DNA of 64,000 nt from Ghiorsea sp. Its GTDB lineage: Bacteria > Pseudomonadota > Zetaproteobacteria > Mariprofundales > Mariprofundaceae. The position numbers and the translations under genes are program-made. Location of the stretch: contig JALWRX010000029.1 in assembly GCA_027080505.1 (NCBI GenBank), positions 1 through 64,000 of the forward strand, given 5' to 3'. How positions within the stretch are numbered: the first letter of the stretch is position 1; each line of letters opens with the position of its first letter. Of this stretch, positions 35,879 through 60,661 are shown piece by piece. The notes beneath the pieces are model-generated. The model saw only the letters and a program-made list of their open reading frames with translations, was not told the origin of the DNA and searched no databases.

Positions 35879-36044
35879 AACCGAACTTGTGTATTCTTAT
35901 GAAAAAGCCCACCCACTCTTGTAAAATACCCATCAAATATGATTCAAAAAATCCACTAAATATTTTTTCACAATGAACATTAAGTTTCACAAATTGAAAA
36001 GTACCCATATTTAAACTACTCTCGCCGTGGGCTGGAGGGCTTAC

Positions 36045-39000
36045 ATGGGTAGTAACGCAAAGTTCAACGAAGACTCAAGAGTAAAAATTCCAACAATTCT
36101 GCACCTAACACGATTAGGCTATGAATACCTCTCGCTTAAAGATGCGAATTGGAATCCTGATACAAATATATTCCCTGACATCTTTCGTGACAGCATTGCC
36201 AAAATAAATCCAAGTATGAATGCGGCAGATATTGACCGCTTGCTTACTGAAATTTCTATCACATTAGACAACGATGATTTGGGTAAAGCCTTTTATGAAA
36301 GGTTAACTCAAAAGTCAGGCATTAAGCTGATCGACTTTGAAGATTTTGATAATAACTCATTTCATGTCGTCACAGAGCTAACCTATAAAAATGGTGATGA
36401 TGAGTTTCGCCCAGATATTATTCTTCTCATCAATGGTATGCCTCTCGCGTTTATCGAGGTCAAAAAACCAAACAATCAAAAAGGTGTGTTGGCTGAACGC
36501 GACAGAATCAATACACGCTTTCAAAACAAAAAATTCCGCCGTTTTGTCAATATCACGCAACTCATGGTCTTCTCAAACAACATGGAATATGACGATGATT
36601 CCCCAGAACCCATTGAAGGCGCATTTTATGCCTCTCCTTCATACCATAAACCTGTGTTCAACTACTTCCGCGAAGAAGAGCATTTAGACCTCGATCGTTT
36701 ATTGAGGCCAGCAGATGAAGCGGTTGAAAACTTTGTGTTAAAAGATACAAACTTAGCGGGCATTAAAGGTAGCCCTGAGTTTTTGACGAACAAAAATCCC
36801 GACTCACCAACCAATCGTATTTGTACATCGCTTTTCAGCCGTGAGCGCTTATCTTTTATCCTTCAATATGCGATTGCCTATGTGAATGAAACCAGCGGCT
36901 TGCAAAAACATATCATGCGCTACCCGCAAATCTTCGCCACAAAAGCGATTGAGAAGAAACTCAATGAGGGTATTCGCAAAGGTATTGTTTGGCATACCCA
37001 GGGTAGCGGGAAAACTGCGCTGGCTTATTACAATGTAAAACACTTAACCGATTATTTCCAAAAGCAGTCGATTATCCCTAAATTTTATTTCATTGTAGAT
37101 AGGCTTGATTTGCTTATTCAAGCGCATAGGGAGTTTACCAGCCGAGGTTTAATCGTTCATACAGTAAGTTCGCGTGATGACTTCGCCAAAGACATTAAAT
37201 CTACAAGCGTGATTCATAACCATTCAGGCAAACTTGAAGTCACAGTGGTAAATATCCAAAAATTCAAAGATGACCCTGATGTAATTAGCACGGATGACTA
37301 TCTGGTGAATATCCAGCGCATCTATTTCTTGGATGAAGTTCACCGCAGTTATAACCCCAAAGGTAGCTTTTTAGCCAACCTTGAGCAGTCGGATAAAAAA
37401 GCCATCAAGATTGGTCTTACAGGTACACCACTACTGGGTGATGAATATAACTCAAAAGCCCTTTTTGGCGATTATATTCACAAGTACTATTACAACGCAT
37501 CCATTGCCGATGGTTATACGTTAAGGCTCATTCGTGAAGAGATTGAGACGAATTATAAGATGACACTTCGCAAAATCCTTGAAGAACTAGAGTTGCAACA
37601 AGGTGATATTGATAAACGCGAACTCTTCGCTCACCATCAATATGTTCAGCCCATGCTCGAATATATTATGGATGATCTTGAAAATAGCAGAGTGGCATTG
37701 GGTGATCATAGCATTGGTGGCATGGTTATTTGTGATAGCTCCAAGCAAGCAAGACAAATGTATGAGATTTTTCAGAATAAGGATTCCAATGTTGTTGATA
37801 TTTCTTCACATACCAAAAGTACCAATCCTCGCATAGATGGTACGCTACCTATGGCAGCAGAACCGCCCAAAGCATATACCGCAACAAAAACAGGAAAGCT
37901 TACATCAGCAGCATTGATTCTTCATGACCATGGCAGCAAGGATGAGCGCAAAGCTTGGGTAGAAGATTTCAAGGCAGGCAAGATTGATATATTGTTTGTT
38001 TACAACATGCTGCTGACTGGCTTTGATGCACCACGCCTTAAAAAATTATACATAGGTCGTCTCATTAAGCGGCATAACTTGCTGCAAGCACTTACCCGTG
38101 TAAACCGCACATACAAAGAGCATCGCTATGGTTATGTGGTGGATTTCGCAGATATTAGCAAGGAATTTGACGCAACGAATCAACTCTATTTTGAGGAGCT
38201 TCAGCAAGAGCTGGGCGATGAAATGGAGCATTATTCCAACTTATTCAAGTCCAAAGAAGAAATTGAACAAGAAATCGAAAGCATTAAAGATATTCTCTGG
38301 GATTTTGACACCGATAATGCCGAGGCTTTCTCACAGCAAATAAGTCAAATTCAAGACAAAAAAGAAGTGCAAGCCATCAAAAAGGCATTGGGTGATGCAA
38401 AAAGCCTGTATAATCTTATTCGTTTGTATGGGCATGATGAGCTTTTGGGTAAAATCGACTTTCAAAAGCTCACAGTGCTCTATCGTGAAGTAAGCAATCA
38501 TTTGGACTTACTGAATCTCAAAGAGAATGTTGAAAGTAGCTCAACCACCAGCAACCTACTCAATGTTGCCCTTGAAGATGTGTTGTTTATGTTCACCAAG
38601 GTGAGCGAAGAAGAGCTGGTATTAGCCGATAAACTGAAAAACACCCTTCGCCAAACCAGAGAAGCCTTGGCTGGCAACTTTGACCAAACAGATCCGAAAT
38701 TTATCAGTTTGAAAGAAGAGTTGGAGCGTTTGTTCAAAAAGAAAAAATTAAGTGAAGTGTCTCAAGAAGAAATGAATGCAAATATTGGCAGCCTAAATAG
38801 CATTTATGATAAAGCAGAAGAACTTAATCGACACAACGCACAACTTAAAGCGAAATACCAAGGCGATGTGAAATATACGCGTATCCATAAACGCCTTGTG
38901 GCACGAGGCATTGCAGAGCATGAACGGCGTATCTTTGAAGCATTAAATGCGGTGAAAGAGCAAGCCGATGACCAAGTTTTACAAAACACGCAGATATTGG

Positions 39001-39161
39001 ACAATGAAAGCTTCTTTGAACGCACAACCATGCCTATGGTGTTCGACCAGTTCAAAAAGCAGCATCATGTTGATATAAGTGCTGACGATGTCCGCTTTAT
39101 CAATAGCCTGCTGGTCAAAGAATATATGAGTGAATTTAATAACGGAGTACAAACGTGGTAA
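36045..39161 (+). CDS. hsdR: Type I restriction enzyme R subunit
   Basis: GIVWHTQGSGKTALAYYNVKHL (Walker A), IYFLDEVHRSYNPKG (DEVH), IGLTGTPLL, N-terminal nuclease FRPDIILLINGMPLAFIEVKKP. Confidence 0.95.
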   Translation: MGSNAKFNEDSRVKIPTILHLTRLGYEYLSLKDANWNPDTNIFPDIFRDSIAKINPSMNAADIDRLLTEISITLDNDDLGKAFYERLTQKSGIKLIDFEDFDNNSFHVVTELTYKNGDDEFRPDIILLINGMPLAFIEVKKPNNQKGVLAERDRINTRFQNKKFRRFVNITQLMVFSNNMEYDDDSPEPIEGAFYASPSYHKPVFNYFREEEHLDLDRLLRPADEAVENFVLKDTNLAGIKGSPEFLTNKNPDSPTNRICTSLFSRERLSFILQYAIAYVNETSGLQKHIMRYPQIFATKAIEKKLNEGIRKGIVWHTQGSGKTALAYYNVKHLTDYFQKQSIIPKFYFIVDRLDLLIQAHREFTSRGLIVHTVSSRDDFAKDIKSTSVIHNHSGKLEVTVVNIQKFKDDPDVISTDDYLVNIQRIYFLDEVHRSYNPKGSFLANLEQSDKKAIKIGLTGTPLLGDEYNSKALFGDYIHKYYYNASIADGYTLRLIREEIETNYKMTLRKILEELELQQGDIDKRELFAHHQYVQPMLEYIMDDLENSRVALGDHSIGGMVICDSSKQARQMYEIFQNKDSNVVDISSHTKSTNPRIDGTLPMAAEPPKAYTATKTGKLTSAALILHDHGSKDERKAWVEDFKAGKIDILFVYNMLLTGFDAPRLKKLYIGRLIKRHNLLQALTRVNRTYKEHRYGYVVDFADISKEFDATNQLYFEELQQELGDEMEHYSNLFKSKEEIEQEIESIKDILWDFDTDNAEAFSQQISQIQDKKEVQAIKKALGDAKSLYNLIRLYGHDELLGKIDFQKLTVLYREVSNHLDLLNLKENVESSSTTSNLLNVALEDVLFMFTKVSEEELVLADKLKNTLRQTREALAGNFDQTDPKFISLKEELERLFKKKKLSEVSQEEMNANIGSLNSIYDKAEELNRHNAQLKAKYQGDVKYTRIHKRLVARGIAEHERRIFEALNAVKEQADDQVLQNTQILDNESFFERTTMPMVFDQFKKQHHVDISADDVRFINSLLVKEYMSEFNNGVQTW

Positions 39162-40789
39162 CACAAGATTTTGAACGCAGAACAAAAGAGCTGATTGATA
39201 GCCTGAAAGGTATTTGTGCATCCTATGGCTTGGGCAATGATGGTAATGAATTCAAAATCATCACGCAGGTTTTCCTGTATAAGTTCCTCAATGATAAATT
39301 CGCTTATGAAGCCAAGAAAATTGAGCCAAGCCTTGCAAAAGCAGAAGACTGGGAAAAAGTCTATGCTGCCATGAGCGCAGACGAGCAAGACATGCTGCAA
39401 ATGCAAATGAGTGCAGACACAGCTCGCCTCAAGCCTGAGCATTTTATTTCATACCTGTTTGAGCAACAAAACACGCCAGACTTTGCCAAACGCTTTGATG
39501 ACACCTTGATTGATATTGCCATCAATAACAACGACATCTTTGCCGTAAAAACCGATGGTGGTTCCAAAGTCACCTTGTTTGACCGTATCAGCGAAAACAT
39601 CACCGACACATCCAAGCGGGATAATTTTTGCCGTGCGCTAATTAACAAGCTGGTGGCGTTTAGTTTTGAAGGCATTTTCACCCAGAAATATGATTTCTTT
39701 GCCACCATCTTTGAATACCTGATTAAGGATTACAACAAAGACAGTGGCGGCAAATATGCCGAGTATTACACGCCCCATGCTGTAGCTAAAATCATGGCTG
39801 CGATTCTTGTGCCTACGGAACAACAAGGAAAAGTGAAGAATGTAAGTTGTTATGACCCATCGGCAGGTTCGGGTACATTGTTGATGAACCTTGCCCATGC
39901 TATTGGTGAGCAGCGATGCAGTATTTTCTCGCAAGATATTTCGCAAAAATCATCCAGCCTGCTGCGCCTGAATTTAATTTTGAATAACTTGGTGCATTCG
40001 ATTCAAAACATTATTCAGGGTAACACCATGCTGCACCCTTATCATAAGGAAGGCAGCGGCTTAAAGAGGTTTGACTACATTGTATCCAATCCACCATTCA
40101 AAATGGATTTCAGTGATTTCCGTGATGATTTGGACAGTAAGGAAAACCATGAACGGTTCTTTGCAGGGGTGCCGAATATTCTAAAAAAAGCTAAAGACAA
40201 AATGGCTATCTACCAGTTGTTCTTGCAACACATCATCTATTCACTCAAACCCAACGGCAAAGCCGCTGTGGTCGTGCCTACAGGCTTTATTACAGCGCAA
40301 TCAGGCATCGATAAGAAAATCCGCCAAAAGCTTGTCGATGAGAAGATGCTGGCGGGTGTGGTGTCCATGCCGAGCAATATCTTTGCAACCACGGGAACCA
40401 ATGTATCCATTGTGTTTATCGACAAAGAAAATCAAGGCGATGTGGTGTTGATTGACGCATCCAACCTTGGCGAAACCATCAAGGATGGGAAAAACCAGAA
40501 AACGGTGCTCACCGAAGCCGAAGAGCAGCAAATCATCAATGGCTTCCTTGCTGTTAAAGGTGCTGATGATTTCTCTGTGGTCGTTTCTTATGAAGATATT
40601 CAAAATAAAAACTACAGCTTAAGTGCGGGTCAGTATTTTGAAGTAAAGATTGAGTATGTGGACATCACCCATGAAGAATTTGAAGCCAAAATGAAAGGGT
40701 TTAGCGATAATCTTGATGCTTTGTTTGATGATTCCAGAACTTTGGAAGTTGAGATTAAAAAGCAGTTGGCTGGATTGAAGTATGAGTAA
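39155..40789 (+). CDS. hsdM: Type I DNA methyltransferase M subunit
   Basis: YYTPHAVAKIMAAIL, SCYDPSAGSGTLLMNLAHAI, FDYIVSNPPFKMDF (NPPF). Confidence 0.96.
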   Translation: MVTQDFERRTKELIDSLKGICASYGLGNDGNEFKIITQVFLYKFLNDKFAYEAKKIEPSLAKAEDWEKVYAAMSADEQDMLQMQMSADTARLKPEHFISYLFEQQNTPDFAKRFDDTLIDIAINNNDIFAVKTDGGSKVTLFDRISENITDTSKRDNFCRALINKLVAFSFEGIFTQKYDFFATIFEYLIKDYNKDSGGKYAEYYTPHAVAKIMAAILVPTEQQGKVKNVSCYDPSAGSGTLLMNLAHAIGEQRCSIFSQDISQKSSSLLRLNLILNNLVHSIQNIIQGNTMLHPYHKEGSGLKRFDYIVSNPPFKMDFSDFRDDLDSKENHERFFAGVPNILKKAKDKMAIYQLFLQHIIYSLKPNGKAAVVVPTGFITAQSGIDKKIRQKLVDEKMLAGVVSMPSNIFATTGTNVSIVFIDKENQGDVVLIDASNLGETIKDGKNQKTVLTEAEEQQIINGFLAVKGADDFSVVVSYEDIQNKNYSLSAGQYFEVKIEYVDITHEEFEAKMKGFSDNLDALFDDSRTLEVEIKKQLAGLKYE

Positions 40790-42026
40790 ACTAACAACAT
40801 ATAAGTTTCATTGCTTATATGAAATGAGTTCGGGTATTTCATCTAAACCTGAGCAAGCTGGGCATGGGTTTCCATTTCTTTCTTTTTCTGCTGTTTTTAA
40901 TAATTACTTTGTACCAGAGGCCTTAAATGACTTGATGGACACCTCAAAAGAGGAGCGTTTAAAGTACTCTATATTAGAAGGAGACATTTTTTTAACACGA
41001 ACAAGTGAAGTAGTGGATGAACTCGCTATGAGTTCGGTTGCACTCAAGGATTATACAGATGCAACCTATAGTGGTTTTTTAAAAAGGTTAAGACCGACTC
41101 AAACTGATATAACATATCATAAATTCATGGCTTTTTACCTGCGCAGTAAGCTATTTCGAAAAACAATGACGAATAATGCGGTGCTTACATTAAGAGCCAG
41201 CTTAAATGAAAATATTTTTTCTTATCTGGACTTAATTTTACCAGAGTATGACGAGCAAGTTAAAATTGGTGATTTACTCTTCTTAATTAGTGAGAAAACC
41301 GAACTCAACAACCGCATCAATGCCGAATTGGAAGCCATGGCAAAAACACTGTATGACTACTGGTTTGTGCAATTCGATTTTCCCGATGAAAACGGCAAGC
41401 CTTATAAATCATCAGGTGGCAAGATGGTGTATAATGAAACCCTTAAGCGTGAAATCCCTGATGGCTGGCAAGATGATTCTTTATGGAATATTGCAGATTA
41501 CTTTAATGGCTTAGCTATGCAAAAACATCGCCCTATATCAAGTGACTACTTGCGAGTCATAAAAATTAAGGAAATGACAGAAGGTTTTTCAGACAAAACG
41601 GAGAAAGCTAAGGCTACAATCCCAAGCAAAGCAGTTGTAAATGATGGGGATGTCCTCTTTTCATGGTCTGCTACGCTATTGGTTCAAATTTGGTCACAAG
41701 GGGTTGGGGCCTTAAATCAGCACATCTTCAAAGTTACTTCAAAAAAATACCCGAAAACTTTTTACTATTACGAGCTGCGGAACTACTTGAACCATTTCAA
41801 GATGATGGCAGAAAAACGAAAAACGACGATGGGACACATCACACAAGAGCACTTAAAACAAAGTAGAATTGTTATTCCCAAAAAAGACTTAATCGAAGTT
41901 ATGGATACTCAATTGAAGCCTATTTTTCAAAAGCAAATGATGCTGGAAAAAGAAAACCAACAACTCACCCAACTCCGTGACTGGCTCTTACCCATGCTGA
42001 TGAATGGACAAGTGACGGTGACATGA
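40782..42026 (+). CDS. hsdS: Type I restriction specificity S subunit
   Basis: Two TRD-like halves with conserved helices (ISEKTELNNRINAELEAMAKTLYDYWFVQFDFP; MLEKENQQLTQLRDWLLPMLMNGQV). Confidence 0.93.
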   Translation: MSKLTTYKFHCLYEMSSGISSKPEQAGHGFPFLSFSAVFNNYFVPEALNDLMDTSKEERLKYSILEGDIFLTRTSEVVDELAMSSVALKDYTDATYSGFLKRLRPTQTDITYHKFMAFYLRSKLFRKTMTNNAVLTLRASLNENIFSYLDLILPEYDEQVKIGDLLFLISEKTELNNRINAELEAMAKTLYDYWFVQFDFPDENGKPYKSSGGKMVYNETLKREIPDGWQDDSLWNIADYFNGLAMQKHRPISSDYLRVIKIKEMTEGFSDKTEKAKATIPSKAVVNDGDVLFSWSATLLVQIWSQGVGALNQHIFKVTSKKYPKTFYYYELRNYLNHFKMMAEKRKTTMGHITQEHLKQSRIVIPKKDLIEVMDTQLKPIFQKQMMLEKENQQLTQLRDWLLPMLMNGQVTVT

Positions 42027-42067: not shown

Positions 42068-43132
42068 TCATTGAAACCTTGTAATACCATCTTTTGAAAG
42101 CTCAATAGCCCAATCATATTTGGATTGAGAAGCATTAAAATTGTGTATAACCCAATTTTTATGTATCCCTTCTTGGTAGCGTTTACCAATATCCAAACCT
42201 AATGTAGATTGAACAGATAAAAACAAATGAACTTTTTTACAATTGGGAAGACTTGATAAATGATCAATGATTTTTTGAACCTTTTCAGAGATTTGATGTA
42301 GATTATCTTGGTTTTTTAGCAAGTTTCGCTCTGTTTGAGTATTTGGAGTAAGCATTAATGTATGGTCAGCAATAAACTCTGGAAGCTGGCTCTTTTGAAT
42401 TGGCGTACTGAACCCCAATGCCAAACCGATATTGCCTTTTGAGTCAGGCTTAGGTGTACTCATATCATATTCGGCGAGAGATATAGATTCATACTCATCA
42501 TTTAATAGCCTCCAGTCTCCCCCACTATGAAAGCGGTCATAGTAAACGACTTTGGCACTTACAGCTCTAAAGCAAGCTCCGTATGCAACCAAGAATGGTA
42601 TTCTAGCCAGCCCTCCCAAATAAACCTTGCTACAATCATGATTTAAAATAAACCTTTTATAGATTTGAACCGTAAGCTCCGCATTGTACATTTTGATTTG
42701 ATCCTCAATTGAACCTTGACCTTCTTCAATACCCAATTCAATGACCTCTCTTGAATCAAGCTGTTCAGATTTAGATAGCAACTCATTGGGAAATCTTTTC
42801 GATGTTCCAAGCATTCCCATAATGAGTACCCTTGCTGTTCCCCTTACTTGCTTCTGGAGCTTTATAACATCAACCCAAATTAGCCAGAAGCCTAAAACAA
42901 AACCCACAGTACCAACGAGCATCGAATACATTGAGACATCGCCAGAAGAGAGTTGTAATTGTTGAAAACCTTCAGGAAATATATAGTTAAGAATGAAACC
43001 TCCAACTGAAAATATAGCCAGTGAGCCCACAATAATTTGCGTTCCCATACGGGCAAGAGGAAATGACTTCTTTCTAATGTCAGCGTAATAAAGCAATAGC
43101 CATTTAATTTTATTCCATAAATTAGTCATCAA
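42068..43132 (-). CDS. CBASS effector: two-TM segment plus SAVED domain
   Basis: TM helices IIVGSLAIFSVGGFILNYIF and MLVGTVGFVLGFWLIWVDVI; SAVED-like C-terminus KKVHLFLSVQSTLGLDIGKRYQEGIHKNWVIHNFN. Confidence 0.8.
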   Translation of the reverse strand: MMTNLWNKIKWLLLYYADIRKKSFPLARMGTQIIVGSLAIFSVGGFILNYIFPEGFQQLQLSSGDVSMYSMLVGTVGFVLGFWLIWVDVIKLQKQVRGTARVLIMGMLGTSKRFPNELLSKSEQLDSREVIELGIEEGQGSIEDQIKMYNAELTVQIYKRFILNHDCSKVYLGGLARIPFLVAYGACFRAVSAKVVYYDRFHSGGDWRLLNDEYESISLAEYDMSTPKPDSKGNIGLALGFSTPIQKSQLPEFIADHTLMLTPNTQTERNLLKNQDNLHQISEKVQKIIDHLSSLPNCKKVHLFLSVQSTLGLDIGKRYQEGIHKNWVIHNFNASQSKYDWAIELSKDGITRFQ

Positions 43133-43655
43133 ATTTATATTCTCCTATCAACTCAATTTTGCGCCCAAATCGTCTATTTACTCCTAGCCAAGCCCTTGCG
43201 TGAGTTTGCCCCACAATGAAGAAAAATAATTTATTGCCTTCATATTTAGAATAATTGATCGCATTGAGCCAGTCTGTTTTATCCGTTGGTGAATAAGTTG
43301 GAACTGGTTCAGGGTGACTATGCCATAGCCCAACATATGTAGAATGATGCTTTGATTTCTTCCAAATTGCTCTCACAAGGTCATGGTGAGATTTTGATCG
43401 GTAATATGTGTGTCGTCCTTGTTTGTCTGTTTGTTGAGGTGGTGTTAATTCGTTAATAAGTAGTGCCCCGCCAGAATTTAAATACATGCCTACCAGTACA
43501 CCTCCAGACTCTGGAGTGTTTGGGGTTAGTTGCCGATATGCCCGTAATTTAGTAAGAAGTGAAGAACTGACTCGAACCAAACCAAGATTTTTAATTTCAA
43601 ATGACCACTCTTTATCCACAACATGCCCTGCAACCATCTTCTCTATAGAGTTCAA
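43122..43655 (-). CDS. cap3: CBASS Cap3-like JAB/JAMM isopeptidase
   Basis: TPESGGVLVG ... VGLWHSHPEPVPTYSPTDKTDW (JAMM HxHP..SxxD-like motif). Confidence 0.88.
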   Translation of the reverse strand: MNSIEKMVAGHVVDKEWSFEIKNLGLVRVSSSLLTKLRAYRQLTPNTPESGGVLVGMYLNSGGALLINELTPPQQTDKQGRHTYYRSKSHHDLVRAIWKKSKHHSTYVGLWHSHPEPVPTYSPTDKTDWLNAINYSKYEGNKLFFFIVGQTHARAWLGVNRRFGRKIELIGEYKFDD

Positions 43656-45306
43656 TCTCCTCTTTTAAAGAAATCTTGTTGTACCTGTTAGTAACTTGTA
43701 AACCTGCTTGATTTTCACCTTTCCAGCTCATTGCTTTTGAATGCCAACCAAACAATAAGTGATCTATAGCATGCCTAGAGGCTATTGCTGCTGTTTGCGA
43801 AGAGTCTAAATAGGAAAATGGCGTGAACACCCCCGCACACCCCGTTAAATTCTTTGATACTTTCTGTCCGTTTTCTAAAAGGGCTAGATGACACCTATTA
43901 TTAAAACCACTGTCATCAGAATATAGACACTCAAGACATGATGACCTTAAATCCAGCAATACTGAGTGTCCTCCAATTCCAGCAGCTTCATTCCAACAAA
44001 ATATAACATTATTGATATTGAGTTCTTTAAACTGCCTGTTCATTTGCAAGCTTAACGCAGGCGAGCCAACTGCAACAACCACCAAGTCAGATGACAGTAA
44101 ATCTTTATCTTTGGTCAGGTTGCAAAATAATTGCCGTTTGGGGTTCACAGTAATGTAAGGGAAATCGAGATGCATTAAAGATGCTAATGCATTGACCTTA
44201 CTACGAGTATTAACTTTCCCAGTCTGTTTATCAGGAAGATAGCTTAGAGATAGACCACCCAGGCGGTGCCTGTATATGTTGTCAGCTTCCAAAAGATCAT
44301 GATCAATCAGTGTCAACTCACCTACGCCAGCTTTAGCCAGCATCAAAGCTACTTCTCCACCTACCGATCCACATCCAACAATTGCAACCTTCTTATTTAA
44401 TAAGCTCTTTTCAGCCCCTCCACGCTCAAGTAAATATCCTTTTGTATTTCGAGCAGGCAAAAACAGTTCAATATCCCATCCATCTGACCTTTCCAGTAGT
44501 GGGTGGGGCATTCCTTTTTTTGCAGTAAAGCTCAGTAATAACTGACTCCTCTCTCCAGAACTTCTCGGCATACTAAGGAGCACAAAAAACTGAGCATGAA
44601 TTTTTTCTTTACGCAGAAGCTTATCTAGCTTGGCTTTGTTTCGATCTGACAAGAATTTCTTCAAATCAAAAACATAATTAGCTGATATTTTTGCGTTTGC
44701 CTTCGGTGGCAATACAGGCTCTGAAAGCGGCATATGAATTATTTTAATTACTTGGTTATGCACTTTCTTCAAATTGCTATAATCGTCTTGGTATTCATTT
44801 CTACGGTTATTCAACAGTACAGGTCGCTCTTTTTTCTTCCTGCTATTAGGTTGGAATATATTTAGGTGTGCATATTCGAGAGTATCACTAGCCTCATAAA
44901 ATGAATTAATGGGAGATGCACAGCACTGAAAGTACCCCTCATATTCGTCTGTTAGCTCATCTTTACTGACTTTCAAAATAGCTTCATCAAGAAGATCTAC
45001 TATATTGCACAATAGTGACTTAAGCACTTCAACTGGCTTATGATAATTCCAAAGCAAGGAATCACCTTCAGTGACACAAATAAGTCCTTCAAAATTAACA
45101 TGCGCTAAAGAGCCAATTAGGTCTGTATCCAACAGAACAGCCTTAGGCAATTCGAACGGGAAATTTGTGGGGAATACTAATTTAACATTCCAATCTTTCT
45201 TCCTCCCCTTCAATACAAAGGAGTAGTTCCCATCACTTTTCTCCCAAGAGATTAAATGAGGTGATTTAATCTGGCTAATTACCTCATTTAATTCGACCTC
45301 CATCAT
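43612..45306 (-). CDS. cap2: CBASS Cap2-like E2-E1 fusion (ThiF domain)
   Basis: E2-like N-terminus with FEGLICVTEGDSLLWN; E1/ThiF VAIVGCGSVGGEVALMLAKAGVGELTLIDHDLLEADNIYRHRLGG. Confidence 0.9.
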   Translation of the reverse strand: MMEVELNEVISQIKSPHLISWEKSDGNYSFVLKGRKKDWNVKLVFPTNFPFELPKAVLLDTDLIGSLAHVNFEGLICVTEGDSLLWNYHKPVEVLKSLLCNIVDLLDEAILKVSKDELTDEYEGYFQCCASPINSFYEASDTLEYAHLNIFQPNSRKKKERPVLLNNRRNEYQDDYSNLKKVHNQVIKIIHMPLSEPVLPPKANAKISANYVFDLKKFLSDRNKAKLDKLLRKEKIHAQFFVLLSMPRSSGERSQLLLSFTAKKGMPHPLLERSDGWDIELFLPARNTKGYLLERGGAEKSLLNKKVAIVGCGSVGGEVALMLAKAGVGELTLIDHDLLEADNIYRHRLGGLSLSYLPDKQTGKVNTRSKVNALASLMHLDFPYITVNPKRQLFCNLTKDKDLLSSDLVVVAVGSPALSLQMNRQFKELNINNVIFCWNEAAGIGGHSVLLDLRSSCLECLYSDDSGFNNRCHLALLENGQKVSKNLTGCAGVFTPFSYLDSSQTAAIASRHAIDHLLFGWHSKAMSWKGENQAGLQVTNRYNKISLKEEIELYREDGCRACCG

Positions 45307-46301
45307 GCATTGTTTCCAGTCATGATAATAGGAGCTGTGTTGGATGCTTTTGAATCTTCGACTAAAGGGAAACCATCAAACACCTTTCTTAATAACTTGC
45401 TTGCCTTATGGTCAGAGTCTTCACCTTTTGCTTCCTCTAAAACCTCTAATAATGCATCAAGTTTTTCATAAAATTGATCTGTCTGATTTAGTGTCATCTT
45501 GTAGTATACATTTTTAAATGGCTTTACTGGTAATTCAACTTCAATACTTTTTTTAAAGGACACTGACTCAAGGTCAAAGCTACTGGAAAACCCACTTTTC
45601 ATTGTGCTCACAATATTGATTAGTGCATCAAGGTCATTGTCACATCGATAGCTGAAAGCATTTCTAGCCTGAATAGTTAACCCGATGGACACAGGTGCAG
45701 CATTTCCATCATTAGAAAACTTCTTCGCTTTCCAATTTTTCAGATATCTAACACATCTCCTGAACTGCTCTGCATGTTTACAGTCAGCGGAAACATCCGC
45801 AACCCATTGCTTTAATTCTTTTGGCTCAGATTTATACCATTGTTTTTTTTCAGCATCCTTTCTTCCCCATGCGATGTGGTAGTCCCCGTCATTATCTGAA
45901 TAAATCGCGATATCAACGTGATAACCATCTGAATATTTGACCGTTATACAGGGGGTATTGAATATCACAGTTCGATTGTGCTGACCATTCAACTTTTTAA
46001 ATACCAGTTTCTTTAGTTTATTCGAATCATATTCATCATTGGTGATATCAAAGATGATTCCTACATCAATGTCATAATCACCATCCTTAGGTTTAATGCC
46101 TGTGTTCATAGCATATGAGCCTTGGTCGAACTTGGTGAAGGTTAATTTTTTGTCTGTGCCAGGAACTTTTTCATCTTTCAGCTTCTCTGTAAGTTCGTTA
46201 ATCAACAAATCTCTTTTGTCTCTTAAAGCTTGATTTTCTTCATATGTCCCTAATTTTATTTCATTGTGAAAATCTTCAAATTCTTTTTGTAAAGTAGCCA
46301 T
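45303..46301 (-). CDS. CD-NTase (cGAS/DncV-like nucleotidyltransferase)
   Basis: FDQGSYAMNTGIKPKDGDYDIDVGIIF (GS..DxD) and YHVDIAIY (third Asp). Confidence 0.9.
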   Translation of the reverse strand: MATLQKEFEDFHNEIKLGTYEENQALRDKRDLLINELTEKLKDEKVPGTDKKLTFTKFDQGSYAMNTGIKPKDGDYDIDVGIIFDITNDEYDSNKLKKLVFKKLNGQHNRTVIFNTPCITVKYSDGYHVDIAIYSDNDGDYHIAWGRKDAEKKQWYKSEPKELKQWVADVSADCKHAEQFRRCVRYLKNWKAKKFSNDGNAAPVSIGLTIQARNAFSYRCDNDLDALINIVSTMKSGFSSSFDLESVSFKKSIEVELPVKPFKNVYYKMTLNQTDQFYEKLDALLEVLEEAKGEDSDHKASKLLRKVFDGFPLVEDSKASNTAPIIMTGNNA

Positions 46302-46430: not shown

Positions 46431-47297
46431 GTGATGAATAAATTAGATTCAATTAGTGATATTCAGCTAGAAAGAGTAAAGTATATAGATTATTGCGCTT
46501 ATTTCTTGGGCAAGGTTGGTCGTAAAGACTTGCAGCAAAAATTTGGCATTGCCCCAGCAGCAGCTACTCGAGATTTTAACTTGTACAACACAGAGGCTCC
46601 AGACAATCTCACTTATCAACCTAACATCCGCTCATATGTAATCAGTCAAAATTTCAAGCCTATATTCAGTTACACTTCTGATAACACCTTATCAAGGATC
46701 ACTAATGAATTAGCAGATGCTTCAGTTACGCCTGAAAACACCCTTCGTTTAGGGCGAAGTCTTGAAGTAGGTCTTCTATCTAAATTAACCAGAAGCATTT
46801 ATTTAAACAAAGCTATTGAGTGTGTTTACCGCTCTACAAGAAGCGGCGAAAGCACTAAGCAGTTAGTTCCCCATGCTATTTTTGATACTGGTTTGCACTG
46901 GTATGTCCGTGCTTACGACAGAAGCGAAAACAGAAGACATTTTTCCGACTTCTCACTGTCTAGGTTTCTAAAAGTTACTGAATTAGATGCTCCACCAGAA
47001 CAAGGGGAGCTTCAATCTAATGACCATACATATAACAAGTTTGTCACTTTAAAAATAATCCCTCATCCCAATCAAAAGCATCCTAAAACCATTGAGTTTG
47101 ATTATGGCATGAGAGATGGAGTTTTAGAAAAAAAAGTGCGCTCATCACTTGCAGGTTATTTACTGCGACGTTGGAACGTTGATTGTTCACTTAACGAGAA
47201 GCTTTCAGGCAATGAATTTCAGTTATACCTAAAAAACACCTCTGAGATCATGAACCATGCTGATTTATTTTTAGCCCCTGGGTTTAAAAAATCCTGA
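46431..47297 (+). CDS. capW: WYL-domain regulator, CapW-like
   Basis: N-terminal HTH (GRKDLQQKFGIAPAAATRDFNLY), WYL-type domain HWYVRAYDRSENRRHFSDFSLSRFL; divergent from CBASS operon. Confidence 0.8.
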   Translation: MMNKLDSISDIQLERVKYIDYCAYFLGKVGRKDLQQKFGIAPAAATRDFNLYNTEAPDNLTYQPNIRSYVISQNFKPIFSYTSDNTLSRITNELADASVTPENTLRLGRSLEVGLLSKLTRSIYLNKAIECVYRSTRSGESTKQLVPHAIFDTGLHWYVRAYDRSENRRHFSDFSLSRFLKVTELDAPPEQGELQSNDHTYNKFVTLKIIPHPNQKHPKTIEFDYGMRDGVLEKKVRSSLAGYLLRRWNVDCSLNEKLSGNEFQLYLKNTSEIMNHADLFLAPGFKKS

Positions 47298-47920: not shown

Positions 47921-48991
47921 TTAGTTTTGTCTCAACCTTATAAACAGCAACATAAAGCCTATGAAAAGCATTGGGAAAGGTATTGATGTTGGTGTCAAGC
48001 AACCTCCACCACCTGAGTCAGCGTTGATTGTTGTCGGTGTAGGTGTTGGTGTACTACCACCTGTTCCGCTCGATGTGCTTGTTTGAAGATTTAACCCAGT
48101 GGGTATCGTTATTTGCCCCCAAGCATTTGAGCCCCAAGCAACCACGGTTCCATCTGATTTTAATGCGACTGTATGAAATTTACCAGCATCAATCGCAATC
48201 ACACTCGATAACCCAATAGGTATTGTTGTTTGTCCAAAAGTATTATCTCCCCAGGCAGCAACTGTTCCATCTGATTTCAAAGCCACAGTAAAACCTGCAC
48301 CTGCCTGAACATCAGTCACGCTGGCAAGACCTACTGGTATGGTTATTTGGCCTGCTGTATTACCACCCCACGCAGTTACAAGGCCATCTGTTTTAACAAT
48401 TACCGTATGACCTACTCCTGCTGAAACCTTGGAAACAGAGGTCAATCCCACTGGAACTGATGTTTGTCCTGAATAATTTTGCCCCCACATTGTTATCGTT
48501 GTATCTGATTTTAATGCAATTGAGTCGTGAAAACCTGCTGCAATAGCAGTAACACCTATCAAACCAGCTGGTAATGTTGTCGAACCAAAAACATCTGTTC
48601 CCCATGTTACTACAGTACCATCTGACTTAAGCGCTAACGAATGAGCCGAACCTGCTGCAATAGCAGTCACACCTGTTAAACCAACAGGTACTGATGCTTG
48701 CAGGCTTGCATTTGAACCCCACGCCACAACTGTACCATCTGACTTTAATGCTAAAACATGACTATCGCCAGCAGCAATGGCAACGACACCTGACAAACCA
48801 GCTGGTACTGTTGTTTGACCAAAGCTATTCCCTCCCCACGCAACAAGTGTCCCATCTGCTTTTAATACTATTGTAAAGTCAGCACCTGCGGCTACAGCAG
48901 GCGTTGCTGCCGATGCATATTGTACATTTAACATGGTCATAGTAATTGTAAGCGTTATAAACGAATACTTTCTCAAAAATTTTAATATCAA
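47921..48991 (-). CDS. Secreted RCC1-repeat beta-propeller protein with C-terminal sorting-like tail
   Basis: Signal peptide; repeats GVTAIAAGSAHSLALKSDGTVVTWGTDVFGSTTLPAGL; C-terminus GGGGCLTPTSIPFPMLFIGFMLLFIRLRQN. Confidence 0.88.
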   Translation of the reverse strand: MILKFLRKYSFITLTITMTMLNVQYASAATPAVAAGADFTIVLKADGTLVAWGGNSFGQTTVPAGLSGVVAIAAGDSHVLALKSDGTVVAWGSNASLQASVPVGLTGVTAIAAGSAHSLALKSDGTVVTWGTDVFGSTTLPAGLIGVTAIAAGFHDSIALKSDTTITMWGQNYSGQTSVPVGLTSVSKVSAGVGHTVIVKTDGLVTAWGGNTAGQITIPVGLASVTDVQAGAGFTVALKSDGTVAAWGDNTFGQTTIPIGLSSVIAIDAGKFHTVALKSDGTVVAWGSNAWGQITIPTGLNLQTSTSSGTGGSTPTPTPTTINADSGGGGCLTPTSIPFPMLFIGFMLLFIRLRQN

Positions 48992-49124: not shown

Positions 49125-49394
49125 ATGGATAGAGATAAGTGGAGTGCCCGACAGGACTTTTTGCAGAAGTCCTTACGTGAACTGAGAAAAGAAAGCCAAC
49201 AAACACAAGTTCAGTTGGCGAAAAAACTAGGTCGCCCCCAAACTTATGTTAGTAAATATGAATTAGGCGAAAGACGACTAGACTTGTTTGAAATCAATGA
49301 TATTTGTAACGCCTGTGATTCAACACTTACTGAATTTATTGCAAGGATTGAACCTCAACTTAAGCGGTACTCTGCACTGAATAAAAAGGTATAA
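49125..49394 (+). CDS. XRE-family HTH protein
   Basis: LRELRKESQQTQVQLAKKLGRPQTYVSKYELGERRLDLFEINDICNA. Confidence 0.88.
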   Translation: MDRDKWSARQDFLQKSLRELRKESQQTQVQLAKKLGRPQTYVSKYELGERRLDLFEINDICNACDSTLTEFIARIEPQLKRYSALNKKV

Positions 49395-50586
49395 CTTGAG
49401 CACCATCACGTAGGCTATCTAAATAATCTGCCCATGATTGCATCATTTTTACCCTTTCTGGTAAATGCCTAGCATGATTATAGGCTTCCTTAATTGCATT
49501 ACCTTCTTTATGCGCCAATTGTCTTTCAATAAAATCAGAATTAAACCCAAGCTCATGCAATAAAGTTGAAGCCATTGCTCTAAAACCATGAGCCGTCATC
49601 GTATGTTTATCATAACCAAGGCGGCGTAAAGTCACGTTAATCGTATTATTACTGATTGGTTGTTTGTTCGTGCGAATTGAAGGGAACACATAACGCCCAT
49701 TGCCTGTAAGGGGTTGAATATCTTTCAAAATAGCAACAGCCTGATTCGAAAGTGGTACTATATGTACTTGCCTCATCTTCATTTTTTCTGCAGCTATCTT
49801 TATTTGTTTGTTTTCAAAATCAATTTCCTTCCACTCTAGGTGCCTAATTTCACCAGGTCTTAAAAAGACATAAGGGGTGAGCATGAGAGCAGCTTTAACA
49901 ACATAAGTGCCTTCAAACCCTTGAATGGCTCTCATCAATTCCCCAGCCTTTCTTGGCTCTGTAATACATGCATAATGTCTTCTTTTCTTATGCTTTAAGA
50001 AGCCTTTAATCATTGTTGTTGGGTCTATTTCAAGCTCATGATGTATCACGCCATAACAAAAGATTTGCGAACACAAAGCTTTAACACGCCTCGCTGTTTC
50101 TTCTGCTCCCCGATCAGCAATGCGTTTCAACGTATCCAATACCATTGATGCTTTTATACTCTTTATCGGCAAGTCTCCTAGCCAAGGAAACACATTTTGC
50201 TCCAAGCTTGTCATCACTTTCGCTGCATAAGCCTCAGATAAATCCTTTGAATATGAAGCAAACCACTCCCTTGCAACTCCTTCAAAAGTTGAAGCTTGAG
50301 ATTCTGCTGTTTTCCTAGCCTCCTCCTGTTTCTTAACTTGAGAAGGGTCAATTCCCTCAGCTAAGAGCTCACGTGCTTGAGTCTTCGCTTTTCTCGCAAG
50401 CTTGGCGGACATATCAGGATAAACTCCGATGGCTAAGGTTTTACGCTTACCACCATAGCGGTAATCAAAGCGCCAATACTTACCTGACTTCAAAACAAGC
50501 AAATATAAACCTTCTCCATCAGTTAATTTTAATTGCTTCCTGCCCTCGGGCACCTTTGCTGCTCGAATTTTCACGTCTGGTAACAT
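49360..50586 (-). CDS. P4-type tyrosine integrase (DUF4102 arm-binding domain)
   Basis: Start MLPDVKIRAAKVPEGRKQLKLTDGEGLYLLVLKSGKYWRFDYRYGGKRKTLAIGVYP after GGAGGTATAT; catalytic LRPGEIRHLEW, HGFRAMASTLL, ERQLAHKEGN..EAYNHA. Confidence 0.95.
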   Translation of the reverse strand: MLPDVKIRAAKVPEGRKQLKLTDGEGLYLLVLKSGKYWRFDYRYGGKRKTLAIGVYPDMSAKLARKAKTQARELLAEGIDPSQVKKQEEARKTAESQASTFEGVAREWFASYSKDLSEAYAAKVMTSLEQNVFPWLGDLPIKSIKASMVLDTLKRIADRGAEETARRVKALCSQIFCYGVIHHELEIDPTTMIKGFLKHKKRRHYACITEPRKAGELMRAIQGFEGTYVVKAALMLTPYVFLRPGEIRHLEWKEIDFENKQIKIAAEKMKMRQVHIVPLSNQAVAILKDIQPLTGNGRYVFPSIRTNKQPISNNTINVTLRRLGYDKHTMTAHGFRAMASTLLHELGFNSDFIERQLAHKEGNAIKEAYNHARHLPERVKMMQSWADYLDSLRDGAQVIPFYSVQSTA

Positions 50587-50640
50587 ATATACCTCCAACC
50601 TTGACGGTATATTTTTGTCCATTGTCATCCAATGATGTTT

Positions 50641-56975: not shown

Positions 56976-57008
56976 AAAGACCTTATAAAGCTGTGCCTTA
57001 TAAGGTCT
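56976..57008. terminator. Terminator after ygiQ / bidirectional
   Basis: AAGACCTTATAA-agctgtgcc-TTATAAGGTCTT. Confidence 0.8.
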
Positions 57009-57028
57009 TCAAATATTAAAGTTCTTCG

Positions 57029-57835
57029 TTAAGCCTGTTTTCGTCTGAAGAATAAACCCAAACCCAACAATCCTAACATCATCAAAAGTGGTGTAGGTAA
57101 TGAACCAGAAATACAGCCTTCAAGACCCTCATTGCCTTCTCCACCACCGCGTGGCCCACCACCAGCAGGAACAATAGGTGTTGCTCTATCCACAACAATA
57201 TTAACGTTAGTAGCACTTGGTAAGCCACTCACTGTCACACTGCCATCAGCATTAAAGGTTACAGTGCTCATTAAGGTTGCTGTGGAAGTAGTAAAATCAA
57301 CCTTATAAACTTTGTCACCTGCATTCACTGCACGATTAAAATAAATCTTTGGTGTCGGTGTAAGAGTCGTATTAACCAAGGGAGAAACACCGCCTGCAAT
57401 ACTGTGCCCTGTGGCAAGAGTGATGCTTGCTTGCGTATAAATATCTGTAATTATTGTTTCTGAGACTTGACCACCGCCTACAACGACAACTTTCGTAGAA
57501 GCTGAGCCTTCAGCAGCTTTAGCCAAGGTAAATGGAGAAACCGTATTTAAATTGAAATTGGTGCTAGCACCACTGACTTCTTGTGCATTATTAAAACCAT
57601 CACCATCACTATCGGATAAGGCAAGGTTTGCACCAGTGCGCCAAGTAATTGCCATAGGCAAAGTAGCTGTGCTGGCATTGGTAACACCACCGCGATGACA
57701 AGCCCCGCAGTACACGGATGCACCATTACCTAATGCTCGATTAAGAATTCCTTCATAACCTGGTTGAGCTTGCGCAACAGTTGAGCCTAATAAAACAATC
57801 ACACTCATCAAACTTAATTTTATCATTGTTTTCAC
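57029..57835 (-). CDS. Secreted single-CxxCH protein with Gly-Cys/TM/Arg tail
   Basis: Signal peptide; YCGACHRGG; C-terminus GCISGSLPTPLLMMLGLLGLGLFFRRKQA. Confidence 0.75.
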   Translation of the reverse strand: MKTMIKLSLMSVIVLLGSTVAQAQPGYEGILNRALGNGASVYCGACHRGGVTNASTATLPMAITWRTGANLALSDSDGDGFNNAQEVSGASTNFNLNTVSPFTLAKAAEGSASTKVVVVGGGQVSETIITDIYTQASITLATGHSIAGGVSPLVNTTLTPTPKIYFNRAVNAGDKVYKVDFTTSTATLMSTVTFNADGSVTVSGLPSATNVNIVVDRATPIVPAGGGPRGGGEGNEGLEGCISGSLPTPLLMMLGLLGLGLFFRRKQA

Positions 57836-57887
57836 TGGTTATCTCCTACCAACACAAATCCCTCAAATTTATAGCACAAGCTTAAAA

Positions 57888-58316
57888 TTACTTTATTGAT
57901 ACAGTATGTTGCTTACGCCGAACCACAAAAACCAAACTTAACATTGCCAAAAACATCATCAATGGTGTGGATAGAGAGCTTGTAATGCAGCCAGTAACTG
58001 ATGCTGTGCCAACAGGTGTTGGTGCCGAAAAGACCCAAGTAGATTTTACTGGACCATATGTATTCAAATATATTGCATCAAGTGCGTCCCAACCAGCTTG
58101 CGTACTAGGTCCAGCTTGGCTGGTACCACCTTGAGCCTTCCAATCTATACCTAGTTGCTGAATCGTTCCAGGGCCTCCTGAGTGGCAAGACGCACAAGTG
58201 GCTTGGTTAGTATAATGAGCATTAAATGCATTGTAAGCACCTGTATTTGCACTTGCAACGGTAGAGCCAATACTGAATGCGCCCAATAAAACAGCTAACA
58301 TTGTAATTTTTTTCAT
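57888..58316 (-). CDS. Secreted single-CxxCH protein with Gly-Cys/TM/Arg tail
   Basis: Start MKKITMLAVLLGAFSIG; ATCASCHSGG; GCITSSLSTPLMMFLAMLSLVFVVRRKQ. Confidence 0.75.
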   Translation of the reverse strand: MKKITMLAVLLGAFSIGSTVASANTGAYNAFNAHYTNQATCASCHSGGPGTIQQLGIDWKAQGGTSQAGPSTQAGWDALDAIYLNTYGPVKSTWVFSAPTPVGTASVTGCITSSLSTPLMMFLAMLSLVFVVRRKQHTVSIK

Positions 58317-58407
58317 CTGATTCCTCCATGAATATGTAAAACAAACTGTAAAAAAAAGCCCCTTGAAATACGTATATCCCAAGAGGCTTGATACTACATA
58401 TTAAAAC

Positions 58408-58875
58408 TTAGTCTTTTTTGCGACGAACAAAAAAGCCCAAAGACAACATCGCCAATACCATCATCAATGGTGTTGTTGCCGATGATGCAATACAACCACC
58501 GCCGCTGCTAGACGGAGATGGGGTCGTTGCTGACACTGCAGGGTTCGCTAACGTACCACCTGCTGGTGCATTACCAGCAGCAATAACTGCGCCATTATTA
58601 GGACTCGCCAAACCGCCAGAGTTCATCCCATCTAAAGTTGTCCAATTTGGCATATAAAGTGTCTTGCCACCACCTGCATTTTTAAAATCTGCGCCAAACG
58701 CATTTCGCGCAGTGTTTGCGTTTCCATCTGCTGTTGTATGGCACAATGCACAAGACGTAACAGATGTGCCATAATGAGCATTAAAATTATTTAATGCCGT
58801 AGGTTTTGCACTTGCTGTATTCGCACTCAGGCTCAACGCACCAAGCATCGCTGCTGATAAAATAATTTTTTTCAT
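58408..58875 (-). CDS. Secreted single-CxxCH protein with Gly-Cys/TM/Arg tail
   Basis: MKKIILSAAMLGALSLS; TSCALCHTTADGN; GGGCIASSATTPLMMVLAMLSLGFFVRRKKD. Confidence 0.75.
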   Translation of the reverse strand: MKKIILSAAMLGALSLSANTASAKPTALNNFNAHYGTSVTSCALCHTTADGNANTARNAFGADFKNAGGGKTLYMPNWTTLDGMNSGGLASPNNGAVIAAGNAPAGGTLANPAVSATTPSPSSSGGGCIASSATTPLMMVLAMLSLGFFVRRKKD

Positions 58876-58967: not shown

Positions 58968-59516
58968 TTAATCATCATCAAGCTCACTCCAATAACCATA
59001 ATTTGGAATCAGAATAGTATCATCATCAAATATACCCTTATCAATCGCTCTATGGCAAGCATCACAATTGATTAAAGACTTCACTTTAGGATTATTTTTT
59101 ACATATTTATCAGGTAAATCCTTATGTTTACGCTTGATATATGGTACTTCCGTAATGCGTAACGGTGTTACATCTTCGGGAATTGAGCGAACGATTTTTG
59201 TTGAGCGTTTATAAAACGAAGTATCTGCAGCGTTATCCACCAAGAACTTAAGCACTTCAACACGATCTTCCTCATCTAGTTCTGCATTTTCACCAAAGTG
59301 ATCTTCCAACGCATCAGGTAACATCAGTTTTTCCCACGAGCGTTTTGGCAACAAGCCCGGGAAATATGCATAATGACATTCTGAACAGCTATCATTGTAC
59401 AAGTCATTCATGACTGGCTTTACACCCTTAAAGCGGAAAAGATTCTCAAAGATATTTCCTGCATATGCCTGACTAGAAAAACCAACAACAGCCATGATTA
59501 ATAATATTTTTTTCAT
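58968..59516 (-). CDS. Diheme cytochrome c (DHC-like)
   Basis: Signal peptide; CSECHYAYFPGLLPKRSWEKLM and CDACHRAIDKGIFDDD. Confidence 0.85.
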   Translation of the reverse strand: MKKILLIMAVVGFSSQAYAGNIFENLFRFKGVKPVMNDLYNDSCSECHYAYFPGLLPKRSWEKLMLPDALEDHFGENAELDEEDRVEVLKFLVDNAADTSFYKRSTKIVRSIPEDVTPLRITEVPYIKRKHKDLPDKYVKNNPKVKSLINCDACHRAIDKGIFDDDTILIPNYGYWSELDDD

Positions 59517-59544: not shown

Positions 59545-60003
59545 TCAATTAAAGCTTTTGAAAAACGCCAAGAAATTACCTTTCTCTTGAGGGGTACATT
59601 CACGCCCATAAGTCCATTTGCAGTTACGCTTGAACCACTTCTTGATTTTCTTTGCTTCTGAAAAACGAGGCACTTGCTCACCTTTACGATTGGTACTCAC
59701 TGCCGAAGGAATCATAGGGGCGATTTCTTTACCCGTCTTGGCATGTTTGCCAGGCTTCGTTAAATCCGTACCATGACAAGTAGAACAACTTCTATCTTTG
59801 ATCATTTCACCCTTCTTCTCATAAGGCATAACCTTGGTCCACATCTTTTTGCCAGCTTCAGCACTAAAATTTGAAGCTCCTTCAGCTTCGTATTTTGCCA
59901 TCATTTCAGGAATAGCACTGCCACCTTCTGCTGCATAACCAATGGTGTTTCCCACCAACGGCGTAATCAATAAAGCTGCTGCTAACATCAATGTTTTTTT
60001 CAT
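59545..60003 (-). CDS. DUF1924/SHP-like c-type cytochrome
   Basis: Signal peptide; SCSTCHGTDLTKPGKHAKTGKEIAPMIPSAVSTNRKGEQVPRFSEAKKIKKWFKRNCKWTYGRECTPQEKGNFLAFF. Confidence 0.85.
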   Translation of the reverse strand: MKKTLMLAAALLITPLVGNTIGYAAEGGSAIPEMMAKYEAEGASNFSAEAGKKMWTKVMPYEKKGEMIKDRSCSTCHGTDLTKPGKHAKTGKEIAPMIPSAVSTNRKGEQVPRFSEAKKIKKWFKRNCKWTYGRECTPQEKGNFLAFFKSFN

Positions 60004-60037: not shown

Positions 60038-60661
60038 TTACCAAGTTAAGGCAATGCCTGTAATCATTGCAGCACCACCAAACATACCATAGGACGCATG
60101 ATTGGTAGTCACTGAACCGCTCCTAGTGTTATAATCATTCACAGCACTGTTCACTGCCATATAATAACCAATCACACCAAGCGTACCCAACAGTACATGT
60201 AGGTTATCTCGGTCTAACAAGCCATCTTCAAGGTGAAAATCATCCCAGTGCGTCCACAAGCCTGTGCCGATAGCCAATGCGCCAAGCTGCCAAGCTGCTT
60301 TTGCTGCAACAACATGCACATTGCTTTTCAAAGCTGCTGAACCATTATCTTTCTTCACAGAGTCTGAAGTTAAAGCTGCAACTCCGCCCAATGCCATAGA
60401 TGTCAAACCCAGATACATATGCGTTTGATTCCATGTTATCGCTGGTTTCTCAAAAGCTGAGTCAGGAACATTCGGTGTTACGGAGCGTCTCGCAACTGAG
60501 GTAGCATTGTTATCAGCAAGTAAAAATGCACTGCTCATATCCTCAATATTCAAATTTAAATCAGCCAATAAAATATTATTATTTGAATCTTGTGCAGCTG
60601 CTGTTGTTATAGATACAATCAACATTGCTAACACCGCTATCGGTCGAACAATAAAACGCAT
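60038..60661 (-). CDS. Membrane protein with several His residues; possible b561-like partner of the adjacent cytochromes
   Basis: Signal/TM segments; WNQTHMYLGLTSMALGG, NVHVVAAKAAWQLGALAIGTGLWTHW, NLHVLLGTLGVIGYYM, NHASYGMFGGAAMITG. Confidence 0.5.
   Translation of the reverse strand: MRFIVRPIAVLAMLIVSITTAAAQDSNNNILLADLNLNIEDMSSAFLLADNNATSVARRSVTPNVPDSAFEKPAITWNQTHMYLGLTSMALGGVAALTSDSVKKDNGSAALKSNVHVVAAKAAWQLGALAIGTGLWTHWDDFHLEDGLLDRDNLHVLLGTLGVIGYYMAVNSAVNDYNTRSGSVTTNHASYGMFGGAAMITGIALTW

Follow-up and report, generated by a model that had tools for sequence, protein, structure and literature searches.

The window analysed here, 64,000 nucleotides of contig JALWRX010000029.1 from Ghiorsea sp. 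(assembly GCA_027080505.1), contains at positions 57029-58875 three adjacent open reading frames on the minus strand, designated P1, P2 and P3, each of which encodes a signal peptide, a single CxxCH motif, and a C-terminal tail consisting of Gly-Cys, a transmembrane (TM) helix and RRK, just as the sequence-only reading had described. The features of the cluster and of its upstream flank are:

56976..57010, minus strand: intrinsic-terminator-like hairpin after P1, at the cluster end; 16-pair stem and T run
57029..57835, minus strand: P1, 268 aa, GTG start; exported; CGACH; beta domain; Gly-Cys/TM/RRK tail
57029..57115, minus strand: P1 sorting-type tail, Cys241 to stop; Cys241 invariant in 16/16 homologs; tail HMM A1 63.2 bits, P1 being one of the model's own rows
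57695..57709, minus strand: P1 CxxCH, residues 43-47; invariant in 16/16 homologs
57888..58316, minus strand: P2, 142 aa; exported; CASCH; Gly-Cys/TM/RRK tail
57888..57989, minus strand: P2 sorting-type tail, Cys to stop; JDVT-CTERM 14.7 bits (cut-off 27); tail HMM A1 74.3 bits, P2 being one of the model's own rows
58182..58196, minus strand: P2 CxxCH, from sequence and short-form alignment
58356..58389, minus strand: intrinsic-terminator-like hairpin between P3 and P2; 15-pair stem and T run
58408..58875, minus strand: P3, 155 aa; exported; CALCH; Gly-Gly-Cys/TM/RRK tail
58408..58494, minus strand: P3 sorting-type tail, Cys128 to stop; JDVT-CTERM 21.2 bits (cut-off 27); Cys128 invariant in 19/19 homologs
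58738..58752, minus strand: P3 CxxCH, residues 42-46; invariant in 19/19 homologs
58968..59516, minus strand: DHC-type diheme cytochrome c, next to the cluster on its upstream side; PF09626 115.7 bits; PDB 2fw5/3u99, E about 1e-28
59545..60003, minus strand: SHP-type cytochrome (DUF1924), of an oxygen-binding c-type heme protein family; PF09086 110 bits; PDB 1dw0, E=2.9e-19
60038..60661, minus strand: 207-aa hydrophobic, His-containing membrane protein; no family reaches its cut-off; same place in a relative, G008

The tail layout of Gly-Cys, TPL(L/M)M, hydrophobic helix and RRK is found in all three proteins, the sequences being EGCISGSLPTPLLMMLGLLGLGLFFRRKQA for P1, TGCITSSLSTPLMMFLAMLSLVFVVRRKQH(TVSIK) for P2, and GGCIASSATTPLMMVLAMLSLGFFVRRKKD for P3. 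At the other end, all three signal peptides finish in AxA. For P2, an ATG preceded by a GGAGGA ribosome site is taken as the start of translation, in preference to the less likely TTG of the ORF tool. P1 contains, in addition, a calcium-loop-like motif, DSDGDGFNNAQE. The hairpin between P3 and P2 is a possible point of partial termination.

By alignment, P1, P2 and P3 are paralogs belonging to one family, in a cluster kept across Ghiorsea (Zetaproteobacteria). Almost all sampled Ghiorsea genomes encode orthologs and paralogs built in the same way, so the pattern seen in P1 to P3 is not a product of chance. In the long form, represented by P1 and aligned for 16 homologs, the invariant residues are C43, C46, H47, D75, D77, D79, G80, N83, E86, Y177, G198, and C241; in the short form, which includes P2, P3 and others (19 proteins aligned), they are C42, C45, H46, G127, and C128, and an Ala of the signal peptide is invariant in both alignments. 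The sequence-only reading had staked itself on conservation of the tail cysteine in orthologs, and that residue is invariant in 35 of 35 full-length homologs. The CxxCH motif, its His included, is invariant in the same set (16 long and 19 short). Exactly three cysteines, namely those of CxxCH and the tail Cys, are present in 30 of the 35; since the CxxCH cysteines would be taken by heme, the tail Cys is left as the free one. It is also the sole invariant column among 23 aligned tails, with neighbouring residues that vary. In both full-length alignments the AxA signal peptidase I site is conserved and an N-terminal lipobox is absent, so that any lipid would have to sit on the C-terminal Cys.

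The bodies of these proteins match the diheme "GEGP" family (NF041762), which is the family most homologs match, over a shared CxxCH and DxDxDG region, with E-values for the best homologs of about 1e-9 to 1e-8; the Ghiorsea proteins differ in having a single CxxCH, and P3 scores 12.7 bits to that model's cut-off of 300. The calcium-loop-like motif, DxDxDGxxNxxE, is found in P1 and many homologs and is invariant in the long subfamily, while only a degraded version remains in P2 and P3 of the window strain. P3 (58408-58875) has lost most of DxDxDG, part of which its G008 ortholog retains. Two further calcium-type motifs, TSP3_bac and Temptin_C, match the bodies weakly. AlphaFold models of P1 and P3, with a Foldseek search of the former, yielded no fold assignment: the P1 model (mean pLDDT 65) shows a beta domain at approximately residues 101-220, with pLDDT about 84-93, and a C-terminal helix, its heme region being poorly modelled, and it returned no Foldseek match at E<=0.001, while the P3 model has mean pLDDT 67. 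A search of solved structures with the P3 family matched cytochromes weakly, around their CxxCH segments (best E=4.1e-5), which does not amount to a family assignment.

The genome to which the window belongs (G000) is 2.03 Mb in 134 contigs and 88% complete; G008 is an essentially complete Ghiorsea relative of about 2.15 Mb. The neighbourhood in G008 is nearly identical: trpD-trpC-ygiQ is followed, on the opposite strand, by a P1-like gene, an extra paralog, a P2-like gene, a P3-like gene, DHC, and SHP, and beyond SHP by the 207-aa membrane protein, a nuclease, pyrD, coaD, and rsmD, all gene names except DHC and SHP having been read from sequence. In another relative, G009, SHP-DHC is followed by three such proteins with tail and CxxCH. 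Adjacent SHP and DHC genes, as in Ghiorsea, are known from Rhodobacter sphaeroides and from many proteobacteria (PMC2909971); the Ghiorsea arrangement differs in the three to four CxxCH genes with tails that follow downstream, and in the 207-aa membrane protein upstream, where CytB might be expected. The protein at 60038..60661 is a possible divergent b-type cytochrome, occupying the place in which SHP operons may carry CytB.

The combination that marks c-type cytochromes, CxxCH in exported proteins (35/35) and an encoded heme attachment system, is present; for heme attachment, the window's genome encodes a cytochrome c maturation protein of ResB type, at 271.9 bits. From this we infer heme loading of P1 to P3. 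The mature cargo would be a small CxxCH protein, presumably with one c-type heme, and often with the calcium-loop motif. Outside of CxxCH and the tail helix, and setting the start Met aside, no Met or His is conserved at 60% or better in the 35 homologs, and with no conserved distal ligand, the sequences do not point to a classical electron-transfer cytochrome. Among Pfam cytochrome c domains, none scores over its cut-off in P1 to P3, the best being Cytochrome_CBB3 at 14.8 bits vs. 27. In the interpretation first offered for this cluster, the sorting tail is well supported by comparison, but the electron-transfer surface chain, for want of both the distal ligand and the domain match, is not established. 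The likely role of the cargo is either alongside the SHP and DHC cytochromes encoded next to it or in redox chemistry outside the cell.

When the tails are compared with HMMs for known C-terminal sorting families, as had been suggested from the sequence, they match JDVT-CTERM (NF033191, cut-off 27 bits) weakly but specifically, and no family cut-off is reached: P3 scores 21.2 bits, P2 14.7, and P1 has no match. Among the 19 short-form homologs, 11 reach E<=0.1 against JDVT-CTERM, and the tail of one relative, in a six-frame search, reaches 27.2 bits. Scores to MYXO-CTERM (TIGR03901, cut-off 20 bits) are 13.1 for P1 and 10.7 for P3. Membership in either family was rejected on these sub-cut-off scores. 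GlyGly-CTERM, a tripartite C-terminal tag linked to surface display by the type II secretion system (T2SS), is similar in plan, but the Ghiorsea tag has Cys as its signature; the GlyGly-CTERM/rhombosortase system was rejected, with rhombosortase (TIGR03902) in 0 of 7 Ghiorsea genomes searched.

The resemblance to JDVT-CTERM and its protease MrtJ (NF033192) lies in the Gly-Cys, hydrophobic helix and Arg-rich end, and in the possession by the genus of an intramembrane glutamic CPBP protease. Canonical JDVT-CTERM proteins coexist with these tails in some Ghiorsea, but their tails read DPLFP where those of P1 to P3 carry TPLMM. MrtJ, moreover, typically shares a two-gene neighbourhood with its client, whereas the conserved Ghiorsea CPBP gene is not adjacent to those of its presumed clients, and no protein in the 16 Ghiorsea genomes scores over the MrtJ cut-off. 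With MYXO-CTERM and myxosortase MrtX the system shares an invariant Cys before the TM helix and basic end, a CPBP protease, and a T2SS; the differences are that MYXO-CTERM belongs to another phylum and has dozens of diverse clients there, vs. the five tail-HMM proteins, all with CxxCH, in G008. For MYXO-CTERM in Myxococcus, cleavage and surface anchoring have been shown experimentally; MrtX cleaves in a Cys-dependent manner, and T2SS has been proposed as the route of its clients to the surface (PMC11980579). The use of CPBP proteases in Cys-type C-terminal sorting is thus known, and the tail described here is best read as a divergent variant of it, not as a listed member.

The tail HMM, A1, was built from 23 tails. 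It matches 15 of 16 Ghiorsea genomes, while the other 62 genomes of the class give a single weak match, in a 37-aa frame. At E <= 1e-4, it finds 14 of 16 Ghiorsea and none of 383 other sampled Pseudomonadota, and among sampled genomes the tail as modelled is restricted to the genus. G008 has five A1 matches, four in the cluster and one in a distant 436-aa protein, and the window's genome has four; all carry CxxCH. The tail proteins share a body as well, so this co-occurrence cannot count as separate evidence that the signal is portable. The census of tail proteins in G008 combined HMM and regex screens, a simple hydropathy screen having missed known members. Tails of similar layout on unrelated bodies do occur outside A1: in the window's genome, on a subtilase with canonical JDVT-CTERM, on proteins with Ig-like repeats, and on an RCC1-repeat protein, and in G008 on a GH16 protein. 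The RCC1-repeat protein is encoded within the window:

47921..48991, minus strand: RCC1-repeat exported protein; PF13540 205.7 bits; Gly-Cys/TM/basic tail GGGGCLTPTSIPFPMLFIGFMLLFIRLRQN on an unrelated body

None of the CTERM models, nor any of the tail models, matches this protein, which by its layout is possibly a further client of the same pathway. Its gene adjoins an integrase-like ORF. The subtilase, on contig C83 (L326, 1691-3892), scores 47.5 bits to JDVT-CTERM; an ORF beside it, on the opposite strand, looks like an apolipoprotein N-acyltransferase, judged from sequence only.

The search for a cognate protease, also called for in the sequence-only reading, yielded a single intact CPBP as candidate in well-covered Ghiorsea genomes, but one that falls below cut-off against MrtJ and was not seen in the window's incomplete assembly. 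This CPBP (Rce1-like) protein, about 215 aa in length, occurs in 13 of 16 Ghiorsea genomes; the three that lack it, the window's own included, are 56-88% complete. Motifs EExxxR and HxxxN are invariant in the aligned sequences (A2). Scores to PF02517 (cut-off 22.4) are 71-76 bits in six well-covered Ghiorsea genomes, the window's own not among them. Five of these have exactly one PF02517 protein; the sixth, G006, has that CPBP plus a split second match that represents a broken MrtJ-like gene. An OmpA-like ORF separates the broken gene (L327, 2422-2661) from that of a large canonical JDVT-CTERM protein nearby. The conserved CPBP scores 43.5 bits to the MrtJ model, with a cut-off of 75, and matches MroQ and other CPBP families equally well. 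In fully read Ghiorsea neighbourhoods the gene order is hslV, CPBP, then DHC-type diheme cytochrome genes. In the window's genome, searches with PF02517 and the CPBP alignment found nothing over cut-off; its contig C102 ends inside the DHC gene of the CPBP locus, with the CPBP site just past that end. The statement that this genome has no protease was dropped, since the conserved site lies beyond the end of C102 and absence is not established.

Co-occurrence of CPBP and tail gives a Fisher table of 12/3/8/55, with p about 1e-6, a value that is descriptive only because the co-occurrence is essentially that of one clade and hence one event. Outside the genus, seven genomes of the class that lack the A1 tail also encode CPBP homologs, several at priA-CPBP-uvrA, which means that the CPBP may have another job. 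The pairing of CPBP with tail is nevertheless likely. The T2SS secretin GspD is encoded in six of six Ghiorsea genomes searched, the window's included, at 577 bits.

We propose, with a probability of roughly 0.6, that P1 to P3 are clients of a Cys-dependent sorting system resembling JDVT-CTERM and MYXO-CTERM, cut by the Ghiorsea CPBP following lipidation of the Cys. The proteins would be exported by Sec via their type I signal peptides and held in the inner membrane by the tail helix, whose RRK end would lie on the cytoplasmic side. Lipidation of the invariant tail Cys would follow, and the single intact Ghiorsea CPBP, an Rce1-like intramembrane protease, would cut off the helix just after that residue. 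The lipid-anchored protein would then pass to the outer surface, with the type II secretion system as the probable route. The mechanism is modelled on MrtX of Myxococcus; we infer lipidation, cleavage, enzyme-client pairing, and surface location.

The tail might instead go uncut, serving as a plain C-terminal anchor, in which case P1 to P3 would be inner-membrane monoheme cytochromes that face the periplasm and pass electrons to DHC and SHP. Stable anchoring needs no more than a signal peptide and a C-terminal TM helix whose cytoplasmic end is basic, and the neighbouring DHC and SHP would be expected in the periplasm. We consider this unlikely, as it leaves unexplained both the JDVT-CTERM match and the one unpaired Cys directly before the helix, unchanged across 35 homologs whose neighbouring positions vary. 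Nor do we think it probable that the tail is sorted as proposed but by some other protease, either an undetected MrtJ or a member of an unrelated family, with the conserved CPBP doing something else. Such an arrangement would accommodate the CPBP homologs in relatives without the A1 tail, an MrtJ score no better than the MroQ score, and the canonical JDVT-CTERM proteins of some Ghiorsea, one of which, in a relative, has the broken MrtJ-like gene nearby; against it, the well-covered, tail-bearing genomes G008, G009 and G007 encode neither a second CPBP nor a rhombosortase.

A third alternative concerns the cargo: CxxCH might carry no heme, and the proteins might be temptin-like or TSP3-like calcium/disulfide domains, for adhesion or matrix structure. 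The invariance of DxDxDGxxNxxE in the long subfamily, the weak TSP3_bac and Temptin_C matches, and the lack, described above, of a conserved distal Met or His and of any cytochrome c domain over cut-off would be expected if so. This reading is nonetheless doubtful in our judgment, given an exact CxxCH with invariant His throughout 35 exported proteins, a genome with ResB-type heme attachment, adjoining genes for c-type cytochromes, and the fact that the family matched by most homologs, with E reaching about 1e-9, is one of diheme proteins.

By these comparisons, what is new is a tail variant restricted to Ghiorsea, the presence of CxxCH in all A1-marked proteins of two genomes, and the linkage of a candidate protease gene to cytochrome genes. 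If the proposed sorting is correct, Cys-type C-terminal sorting would extend to the Zetaproteobacteria, with main clients that are c-type-cytochrome-like. To our knowledge, the surface redox proteins of marine iron oxidizers are poorly known beyond the outer-membrane cytochrome Cyc2. Speculatively, a genus-specific signal and one CPBP, with mainly CxxCH clients, might provide a surface set of lipid-anchored, calcium-binding monoheme proteins that acts with SHP and DHC in extracellular electron uptake or in O2/NO handling. Ghiorsea lives by iron and hydrogen oxidation at hydrothermal vents (PMC10734525).

Elsewhere in the window, a type II CBASS defence locus at 42068-46301 encodes a 2TM-SAVED effector, a JAB protease, an E1-E2 fusion, and a nucleotide cyclase, together with a WYL protein at 46431-47297; type I restriction-modification genes at 36027-42026 adjoin it. 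The integrase-like ORF, at 49360-50628, is a hint that this region is a genomic island. At 12610-14739 and 17523-19391 lie two long ORFs, paralogous and lipoprotein-like, with repeated "GDGNTLAVGA...TQQAYVKASN" units.
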